Origin: Bacillota bacterium
GTDB lineage: Bacteria; Bacillota; UBA4882; UBA10575
Assembly (NCBI GenBank): GCA_012727425.1
Contig: JAAYHQ010000018.1
Span: forward strand, 1 to 49,602
Length of the DNA: 49,602 nucleotides
Reading direction: 5' to 3'
The translations under genes were made by a program, and so were the position numbers. Below, one piece after another: positions 18,527-20,900 of the stretch; positions within the stretch are counted from its first letter, which is position 1, and every line of letters begins with the position of its first letter. The notes beneath the pieces are model-generated. The model saw only the letters and a program-made list of their open reading frames with translations. It was not told the DNA's origin and ran no database searches.

Positions 18527-18898
18527 ATGTTCACGCAATTGACGGCACAAAAACCACTCAACGAGCACAGGAGGAGTTTGCAGGCGGAGTTTAAACGCCT
18601 CCGGGCGGCCGAGGAGAAGGTGCCGGAGGAAGAAAAGATCCAGTTCTGGGTGGAACAGTTTCCTTTTACCATTGAATATCTTTGTTTACAGTTGGTCCAG
18701 ACCGGTGAGCAAGAGCTTCAGGAAGAAGCCCTCCGTTTTTACCTGAAATATGCGGAAACCATGCGTGGTCTTTCGGAGTTTCAGGCGGTCCATCTTCGTG
18801 TCTTTTTTCTCCAGTTGGTCCGTCTGTTGCCCGAAGCGGAGCAGGAAGTGTGGCTACACGGACTGGACCGGGTCTGGGAAGGCTTTTTCTTAGAATAA
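18527..18898 (+). CDS. Small helical protein of unknown function
   Basis: A 123-residue soluble protein, predicted almost wholly alpha-helical and acidic. Visible segments are a charged first helix (RRSLQAEFKRLRAAEEK), then QFWVEQFPFTIEYLCLQLV, EEALRFYLKYAETM, and a C-terminal LVRLLPEAEQEVWLHGL. No catalytic or binding motif is seen, and I do not recognise the family. The ATG has only a weak ribosome site; the frame is open upstream to 18476 but offers no better start. It lies just ahead of the ABC-F promoter and is transcribed in the same direction, with its stop 8 nt before the -35 box, so it is likely a separate unit. Confidence 0.6.
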   Translation: MFTQLTAQKPLNEHRRSLQAEFKRLRAAEEKVPEEEKIQFWVEQFPFTIEYLCLQLVQTGEQELQEEALRFYLKYAETMRGLSEFQAVHLRVFFLQLVRLLPEAEQEVWLHGLDRVWEGFFLE

Positions 18899-18905
18899 GG
18901 GGCGA

Positions 18906-18934
18906 TTGACATCGCGGGAAGGGCTCTATATAAT
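18906..18934 (+). promoter_or_regulatory. Perfect consensus promoter of the ABC-F attenuator leader
   Basis: TTGACA (18906-18911), exactly 17 nt, TATAAT (18929-18934). Both hexamers are perfect. Transcription would begin near 18941, about 307 nt upstream of the ABC-F start, so regulation is expected after initiation. Confidence 0.85.
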
Positions 18935-18940
18935 TAAATA

Positions 18941-19247
18941 TGATGATGTAGTAGAATACTTTGAGAAAGGGTAAGGGCTTAGTAGCTAATGTTCAACTAA
19001 TCCACTCTCATGAAAGTTTATAGAAGCTCGAAGTCATTACCGTTGGTGGTGGCTTCTTTAATCGTGTTTCTCTTATACTACGACGAGTGGATAGTGGATC
19101 ATAGCTGCTGAACGCCAAAGGAAAAAAAGGGGCATCCTTCTTTGTGTTGATTAGATCTTGGGATTTTTAAGCCCTTGGTTTTTAGGCACAGCCAGTTATC
19201 GGTAGGTAGATACCACTATCCTCTCCAAAGGTCAGGAGGGGTTTTTT
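18941..19247 (+). promoter_or_regulatory. Attenuator leader of the ABC-F gene with mutually exclusive pairings
   Basis: Three segments matter. A (19000-19007, ATCCACTC) pairs perfectly with B (19085-19092, GAGTGGAT). B extended (19085-19097, GAGTGGATAGTGG) pairs at 12 of 13 positions with C (19213-19225, CCACTATCCTCTC). C overlaps the left arm of the terminator (19220-19226). So A:B leaves the terminator free, while B:C destroys it. A micro-ORF (ATG 18989, codons Met-Phe-Asn, stop 18998-19000) ends on A, and a 33-residue ORF starts 3 nt after A. A ribosome paused at either site would cover A, free B, and favour the antiterminator. This matches the known logic of antibiotic-inducible ABC-F resistance genes; the details here are read from sequence only. 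Confidence 0.75.
19010..19111 (+). CDS. 33-residue candidate leader peptide of the ABC-F attenuator
   Basis: ATG 19010 to TGA 19109-19111. The peptide begins MKVYRSSKSLPLVVASLIVF and continues with a Leu/Tyr run and an acidic end (DEWIVDHSC), so it resembles a nascent-chain stalling peptide with a hydrophobic middle. Its 3' end covers pairing segment B, and its start is 3 nt after segment A. No good Shine-Dalgarno sequence precedes it, so initiation may be weak, or may depend on reinitiation after the Met-Phe-Asn micro-ORF that ends 9 nt upstream. Its existence as a protein is unproven. Confidence 0.45.
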   Translation: MKVYRSSKSLPLVVASLIVFLLYYDEWIVDHSC

Positions 19248-19253
19248 ATTTTA
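19220..19253 (+). terminator. Attenuator terminator whose 3' arm holds the ABC-F ribosome site
   Basis: Stem CCTCTCC (19220-19226) with GGAGGGG (19235-19241), loop AAAGGTCA, one G-T wobble, followed by TTTTTTATTTTA. The right arm AGGAGGGG is also the Shine-Dalgarno sequence of the ABC-F gene, so the same hairpin can stop transcription and hide the ribosome site. Confidence 0.8.
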
Positions 19254-20900
19254 CTGTTAGAGTGTGGAAAGATCAAAAAGTCTTTCGGCGACCGGTTGGT
19301 ACTTGACTTGGAGAGTTTGCAGATCTATTCTGGCGACCGGATTGGTGTGGTGGGGGCAAACGGAGCTGGGAAAACCACCCTGCTGAACATTTTGTGCCAA
19401 AGGCTAAAACCGGATACGGGGTGGGTTAAGCTTTATACCAATTGGGCCTACATCGCTCAGTTGGAACCGCCGGAGCAGAAAAGGATTAGCCCCGAGATGG
19501 CCGCCAAGTTCGGGGTGGCCATGGTTTGGGACGAAAAGATGAGCGGCGGGGAGAAAACCCGGTTTAAACTGGCGGCTAGTTTTGAGGCGGATTGTCCGTT
19601 GCTCTTTGCCGATGAGCCGACGAGCAATATCGACCTTGAAGGGATTGAGCTTTTGGAAAAGCGGCTGGCGGAGTACCAAGGGGCCTTTGTTATTGTCGCC
19701 CATGACCGGGGTTTTCTGGATCGACTTTGCAACAAAATTTTGGAGGTGGAGTACGGTAAAGTAAGGCTTTACTACGGCAATTATAGTGCCTATCGTGCGC
19801 AAAAAGCGGCGGAGAGAGCACGCGCCCAATTTGAATATGAGCGGTATATAGACGAGAAAAAGCGGCTTGAACGGGTAATCACTGAGCGCCGGCAAAAAGC
19901 CCGCGCGATCAAGAAAGCACCGAGCAGGATGGGCAATTCCGAGGCGCGCCTCCATAAGTTGGCCGGACAAAAGGCCAGGGCCTCCTTGGAGCGGGCCGCG
20001 AAAAATGTTGAGGCCCGTTTAAACCGCCTCACGGTGAAAGAGAAACCAAAAGAACAAGCCAGGATTAAGTTGGATGTTACTGCGACAAAGCCGATTCATA
20101 GTAAAGTTATTATTCAGGGTTATAACCTAAACAAAAGCTTTGGCGACCAGGTCATCTTGCAGGAGGCCGAATTTCAAATTGTGAATGGCGCCAAAGTTGC
20201 CTTAATTGGCCCCAATGGCTGTGGAAAAAGTACATTGCTCAAAATGATCATGCGCCAAGAGGTGGGGATTAAAATTGCCCCGGGCGCGGAGATCGGTTAC
20301 TTTAGCCAGGAGATGGATATTCTGGATGATGACGCCACCATTCTTGAGAATGTGCTGGCGGAGAGTGCCTATGATGAAACTTATGTGCGGACCTTCCTCG
20401 CCAGGCTGCTTTTTAAGGGAGAAGAAGTCTTCAAGCCCGTGCAGGTTTTAAGCGGCGGTGAACGGGTCAAGGTCGCTTTGGCCAAGATCCTTTTAAAAAA
20501 GGCGAATATGCTGATCTTGGATGAACCCACTAATTATCTGGACCTCAATGCGCTTGAAGTCCTGGAAGAAGCCCTGCAGAGTTGCAGTCAGACTTTGCTA
20601 TTTGTTACCCACGACCGCCGGTTGATCAGTGCAGTTGCCGATCGTATAATGACCATCGAAAAGCGAAAAATCAAAATGTTTGCCGGAAATTACCGGGAAT
20701 ATTTGGCCCAAAACGACTGTGGAGTAAACAAAGAATTAGAGGAGATTAAAAAACAAATTTTTGTCTTGGAAAATCGCTTATCAGAGTTGATTGGGCGTTT
20801 ATCGTCGCCGGCGAAGAACGATGATCCCGAGGCCCTTGATCAAGAATACCACGCGGTGCTGGCCGAATTGAAAAGACTAAAGGTAAAGCTGGGGTCGTAA
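19248..20900 (+). CDS. ABC-F ribosomal protection protein (antibiotic resistance type)
   Basis: Soluble twin-ATPase of the ABC-F family that binds the ribosomal E site and dislodges peptidyl-transferase-centre antibiotics (lincosamides, pleuromutilins, streptogramin A, phenicols in related Vga/Lsa/VmlR/CplR proteins). First ATPase: Walker A GANGAGKTTLL, signature MSGGEKTRF, Walker B LLFADEPTSN. Second: GPNGCGKSTLL, LSGGERVKVALAK, LILDEPTNYLD. Between them is the charged linker that reaches the drug site, with the resistance-type run RMGNSEARLHK. A C-terminal coiled coil follows. The frame contains LLLECGKIKKSFGDR upstream of the first ordinary start (TTG 19296); this matches family N-termini, and the codon in the right place, 6 nt after AGGAGGGG, is ATT 19248. 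An AUU start is therefore proposed, giving 550 residues. The drug spectrum cannot be read from sequence. Confidence 0.9.
   Translation: MLLLECGKIKKSFGDRLVLDLESLQIYSGDRIGVVGANGAGKTTLLNILCQRLKPDTGWVKLYTNWAYIAQLEPPEQKRISPEMAAKFGVAMVWDEKMSGGEKTRFKLAASFEADCPLLFADEPTSNIDLEGIELLEKRLAEYQGAFVIVAHDRGFLDRLCNKILEVEYGKVRLYYGNYSAYRAQKAAERARAQFEYERYIDEKKRLERVITERRQKARAIKKAPSRMGNSEARLHKLAGQKARASLERAAKNVEARLNRLTVKEKPKEQARIKLDVTATKPIHSKVIIQGYNLNKSFGDQVILQEAEFQIVNGAKVALIGPNGCGKSTLLKMIMRQEVGIKIAPGAEIGYFSQEMDILDDDATILENVLAESAYDETYVRTFLARLLFKGEEVFKPVQVLSGGERVKVALAKILLKKANMLILDEPTNYLDLNALEVLEEALQSCSQTLLFVTHDRRLISAVADRIMTIEKRKIKMFAGNYREYLAQNDCGVNKELEEIKKQIFVLENRLSELIGRLSSPAKNDDPEALDQEYHAVLAELKRLKVKLGS

Follow-up and report, generated by a model that had tools for sequence, protein, structure and literature searches.

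How is a resistance gene of the ABC-F type expressed when its leader ends in an intrinsic terminator, and where does its translation begin when no ATG, GTG or TTG codon is in place? These questions are raised by a 49,602-nucleotide stretch of a Bacillota genome (contig JAAYHQ010000018.1, hereafter the window), which contains an ARE-ABCF gene on the plus strand (19248–20900). By NCBIfam profiles the encoded protein is CplR-like: its best match is the CplR model NF043038 (614.8 bits, short of the curated cut-off of 780), and it passes the model for ribosomal protection ABC-F proteins (NF000355; 530.3 bits against a cut-off of 380). The closest solved structure is that of a lincosamide–streptogramin A resistance ABC-F (7nhl, 399 bits), and the Listeria lmo0919/vgaL protein is more distant (290 bits). 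Within the genus, all eight genomes searched contain the gene. On comparative grounds we consider it very probable (about 0.9) that the leader of this CplR-type gene combines ribosome-mediated attenuation of transcription with attenuation of translation, and that the gene starts with AUU. The evidence is computational and comparative throughout; at this level it establishes how the leader is built, that it is conserved with compensatory change, what switch is predicted from it and where the AUU is placed.

The leader is preceded by a sigma-70 type promoter (TTGACA-N17-TATAAT, 18906–18934; plus strand, as for all elements below) that matches the consensus at 12 of 12 positions. Directly 5' of the promoter lies a 123-residue open reading frame (18527–18898) without an NCBIfam match. 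Downstream, a ribosome-binding region (GAAAGGGTAAGGG, 18965–18977) serves a uORF that encodes Met-Phe-Asn (ATG TTC AAC TAA, 18989–19000) and ends on segment A (ATCCACTC, 19000–19007), the 5' arm of the anti-antiterminator. Segment A is the exact reverse complement of 19085–19092, which forms part of segment B (19085–19097). The alternative partner of B is segment C (19213–19225), to which it is complementary at 12 of 13 positions (duplex −21.4 kcal/mol). Segment C, in turn, overlaps the 5' arm of an intrinsic terminator (19220–19247) with a 7-bp stem (19220–19226/19235–19241) and a U6 tract (TTTTTT). The original prediction, made from the window alone, had named the perfect promoter, the micro-ORF ending on A, both pairings of B and the overlap of C with the left arm of the terminator, and all of these were found again.

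Two features had escaped that prediction. The ABC-F gene has no ATG, GTG or TTG start in place, and its Shine–Dalgarno (SD) sequence (AGGAGG, 19234–19239) is located within the 3' arm of the terminator, an arrangement that recurs in relatives. Because the SD sequence is part of this arm, formation of the hairpin should prevent translation as well as transcription. The leader can also form an outer helix, P1, in which the ribosome-binding region of the uORF (5' arm, 18976–18988) pairs with a segment 3' of B (19102–19116; −17.8 kcal/mol). An inner hairpin, P2 (GAAGUCAUUACC/GGUGGUGGCUUC, 19030–19056), is present in the minimum free-energy fold, and similar AAGUCnn/nnGGCUU hairpins are visible in the leaders of relatives.

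Could the hairpin instead be an ordinary terminator of the upstream gene, with complementarities that arose by chance and an ABC-F gene that is transcribed by other means? The number of terminator consensus sites in the region is indeed near the shuffle expectation (5 found, 3.7 expected). However, a perfect promoter separates the hairpin from the upstream gene. When we shuffled the upstream leader with preserved dinucleotide composition and the terminator held fixed, a 12/13 match to C occurred in one of 5000 shuffles, and jointly with an upstream segment A in none of 5000. The native leader also folds better than its shuffled versions by about three standard deviations (z = −2.96).

Comparison with relatives speaks to the same alternative. 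In 45 leaders we located, independently of each other, the site that pairs best with A (taken as the uORF stop plus 10 nucleotides) and the one that pairs best with C. As in the window, complementarity is kept and the two sites coincide in 44 of the 45 leaders; in one leader (L116) they are apart. A shared site is partly expected from composition, since A and C both resemble an anti-SD sequence: with shuffled middles, 13.2 coincidences are expected among 45 leaders, and the maximum in 200,000 simulations was 26. The coincidence persists in leaders with unrelated A, B and C segments, such as UAAUUCGGCA/GCCGGAUUAG (L118), UAAUCCUGCUGU/CCAGCGGGAUUGG (L131) and UAAUUAUCUCAUU/GAAUGAGAUAGUUAU (L114). 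As far as sequences can tell, this analysis shows that the predicted A/B/C switch has been conserved through wholesale sequence replacement, and it provides independent comparative support for the attenuator model. Such cross-family conservation with compensatory change contradicts chance complementarity, and we regard the ordinary-terminator explanation as extremely improbable.

With RNAalifold, the A:B helix emerged as the sole consensus structure of the 29 closer leaders, and its pairs, except for a variable end pair, are kept in nearly all of these sequences. In the same set, the GAAAGG..AAGG motif of the ribosome-binding region is almost invariant. RNAalifold did not recover P1 in these 29 leaders, probably because MAFFT misaligned the variable spacer. 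Therefore, we assessed P1 by permuting its arms among the 45 leaders. In this test, which ignores relatedness among leaders, cognate arms pair with a mean energy of −14.2 kcal/mol as compared to −10.2 kcal/mol for permuted arms, and none of 5000 permutations gave a value as low. Of 22 related leaders scanned for a promoter, most also have one with a 12/12 match, 43–65 nucleotides 5' of the uORF. A phylum-level search with the terminator pattern returned mostly chance sites, and those matches that come with a B site and are followed by the gene of a homologous protein all belong to CplR-type genes. The leader of L058 contains about 100 additional nucleotides between A and B, with A, B and C intact. 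Many leaders other than that of the window (L106, L107, L010, L016 and others) contain a conserved ATGCATTTTATTAA-like element just 5' of B, which is possibly a pause site.

Folding predictions, with and without A blocked, are consistent with a switch. In the free window leader, the A:B helix forms with a probability of 0.94, the terminator with 0.99 and B:C with 0.00. When a ribosome footprint covers the uORF and the 3' arm of the terminator is not yet made, nascent B:C pairing in the window rises from 0.00 to 0.90–0.92. The same footprint on the full-length leader affords B:C pairing with 0.76 and leaves the terminator at about 0.44–0.58. Since the full-length equilibrium fails to fully exclude the terminator, the switch would need co-transcriptional timing. 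Across the 45 leaders, blocking raises mean nascent B:C pairing from 0.08 to 0.77, with an increase of more than 0.3 in 40 of them. The predicted switch is weak or fails in L116, L068 and L127, and in L121 B:C already dominates in the free leader. Together with the consensus A:B helix and the shared B site, these folds strongly support the ribosome-mediated attenuation that had been proposed for this leader.

We envision the following mechanism. In the absence of drug, ribosomes would finish the three-codon uORF quickly and leave. A would then pair with B within the P1/A:B anti-antiterminator, and C would be free to form the hairpin that contains the SD sequence. RNA polymerase would halt in the U-tract, and the SD would be hidden in any read-through mRNA. 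A ribosome arrested by a drug at the uORF start would cover A and the 5' arm of P1. With A masked, B would pair with C, no hairpin would form, transcription would proceed and the SD would be exposed. Translation of the ABC-F protein would start at AUU 19248, and this weak start should cap or damp the output. That drug arrest leaves a ribosome on the uORF is inferred here, and by analogy with CplR the triggering drug is probably a pleuromutilin, a lincosamide or a streptogramin A.

The leader had been held to be unrecognizable, but it can be recognized as a CplR-type leader by comparison with that of Clostridioides difficile cplR, which was dissected by mutation in the presence of retapamulin and lincomycin (Obana et al. 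2023, PMC10201436). As reported there, cplR has a three-codon uORF, a 5' hairpin that sequesters the uORF, a terminator hairpin that hides the SD with termination at the start codon, and an antiterminator that forms upon ribosome stalling, which amounts to dual attenuation of transcription and translation; a U-tract mutant is still translationally regulated. By its structural features the leader in the window resembles this system: close to its 5' end it has a uORF of only three codons, preceded by an SD and sequestered by a 5' helix, a terminator with a stem that sequesters the ABC-F SD is located just before the start codon, and the anti-antiterminator and the antiterminator are mutually exclusive. 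This type of switch is already known from C. difficile, and our comparison extends it to other bacterial families. New here are the uORF peptide (MFN instead of MR[I/M]), the longer leader (about 300 instead of 212 nucleotides) and the AUU start; the string AUU is absent from PMC10201436, and the sections of it that were consulted mention no compensatory change of A, B and C across families. The MR[I/M] consensus does not fit the window and is found only in some clostridial relatives; it is the consensus of the clostridial members and is unnecessary for the mechanism.

More distant parallels exist. Bacillus subtilis vmlR also combines a tripeptide uORF (MIN) with anti-antiterminator, antiterminator and terminator, and adds sequestration of the SD (Takada et al. 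2022, PMC9226507). Unlike in the window, where the terminator itself contains the SD, this sequestration occurs in a separate hairpin (SL-4), and vmlR belongs to a different ABC-F subfamily (ARE2). The attenuator of Listeria monocytogenes lmo0919/vgaL likewise controls an ARE-ABCF gene, which is inducible by lincomycin, and in PMC10201436 its leader is aligned with cplR leaders with respect to the uORF and the anti-SD.

What does the uORF sense? In nearly all homologous leaders it comprises two to four codons with a stop that adjoins A. The encoded peptides vary freely (MFN, MFL, MFIR, MFIC, MFD, MRN, MKH, MRI, MRK, MKK, MK, MR), whereas position and length are fixed. This pattern favors an arrested initiating or early-elongating ribosome as the likely sensor, rather than a particular nascent peptide. 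Stalling dependent on the nascent peptide is the principle of leaders such as those of erm and msrD. Here, Met-Phe-Asn or the product of a 33-codon ORF that follows A (19010–19111, plus strand) could play this part. MFN does recur in several members of the window's family, the 33-codon ORF extends through into B, and according to PMC10201436 the MIN sequence of VmlR is reportedly crucial for induction by lincomycin. Given the variation of the peptide at fixed uORF length and position, we consider peptide-specific stalling improbable. The 33-codon ORF is present, as originally described, but is missing or unrelated in most relatives. We rejected it as a component of the switch, and from its distribution it is best read as incidental.

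A direct drug sensor in the RNA is a further alternative. A ligand-binding riboswitch would be consistent with a structured leader that contains conserved blocks, and Rfam, which returned no relevant family for the leader at gathering or permissive thresholds, neither supports nor excludes this idea. However, the conserved blocks are accounted for by the uORF, A, B, C and the SD, the start and the stop of the uORF are conserved beside A, and induction in C. difficile depends on the uORF start codon, as described in PMC10201436. We judge a riboswitch to be very improbable.

The second question concerns the start of the ABC-F protein. The earliest ATG, GTG or TTG in its frame is codon 17 (TTG 19296). 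We rejected this codon as start, because the protein would then lack its first 16 residues, and homologues conserve these. An upstream in-frame start was also rejected: among relatives, the spacing between C and the start is found in each of the three frames, and therefore no upstream start is conserved. In an alignment of 51 homologues at the start, AUU 19248 matches the clostridial AUG exactly, with a similar distance to the SD (8 nucleotides in the window). Since Leu codons 2–4 vary synonymously, coding should begin at the AUU. From this alignment, the ABC-F start appears to be AUU 19248–19250, which sits within the U-tract of the terminator. Among the 51 homologues, 20 start with AUU, 25 with AUG and 6 with UUG, the latter one codon downstream in three of six cases. 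The AUU starts (window; L055–L060, L062, L067, L101, L068, L106–L108, L122, L123, L125–L128) are distributed over the window's family f1 (10, with AUG in L064) and families f8 (4), f133 (4), f5 (1) and f150 (1). On a 49-protein tree this distribution requires at least four changes, at least two of which are forced by well-supported branches.

AUU starts have precedents. That of infC makes translation of IF3 sensitive to IF3, and that of pcnB is also weak and non-canonical. The start of the ABC-F gene is of the infC type in that AUU occupies the position of the homologues' AUG behind a strong, well-spaced SD, with no other in-frame start. The infC genes of the window's family (L135–L149) apparently start with ATT in most cases and with ATA in a few (L136, L137, L146), behind AGGAGGTGG and preceded by AGGAGG. 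They provide a positive control that cells of this family use such starts. In Streptomyces, an unusual GTC start renders sigR repressed by IF3 (PMC5472188). Like the window gene, infC, pcnB and sigR have weak non-canonical starts, but none of them is a resistance gene or an attenuator. We found no description of an AUU start on any resistance gene in the open-access literature searched.

By analogy with these genes, a weak IF3-sensitive AUU may add a third layer of control to an inducible resistance gene. It is conceivable, if rather unlikely, that the AUU is a conserved functional element in several Bacillota families, where IF3-sensitive initiation would keep read-through expression minimal and make output depend on how free 30S subunits and IF3 are balanced. 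If so, resistance output would be linked to a balance that translation inhibitors disturb. We hold it possible, at somewhat below even odds, that the same attenuator operates with AUU as a tolerated, near-neutral substitute for AUG in a U-rich tract that adds no regulation. With AUU, the T-rich stretch that belongs to the terminator becomes longer, UUG variants exist as well, and the start codon can switch between close genes: L128 (AUU) and L109/L130 (AUG) encode near-identical CplR proteins with end branches of about 0.03–0.04. On the other hand, within the window's family all 10 genes of genera g1, g3 and g4 whose start could be read retain AUU, as does a clade of 12 genes, and the codon stays while the adjacent Leu codons 2–4 vary synonymously. 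In Staphylococcus aureus reporters grown in poor medium, AUU and AUA starts yield about 10% of the output from AUG (PMC13009471), a reduction that a resistance gene would be expected to feel.

From the aligned starts, AUU-start resistance genes appear to occur in the window's family and, beyond it, in four or more further families of bacteria. Of the results described here, the start codon is that of most consequence, since gene callers limited to ATG, GTG and TTG will truncate or mis-start such genes. The near-identical genes with AUG and AUU constitute a natural pair for asking whether the start codon tunes inducible resistance.
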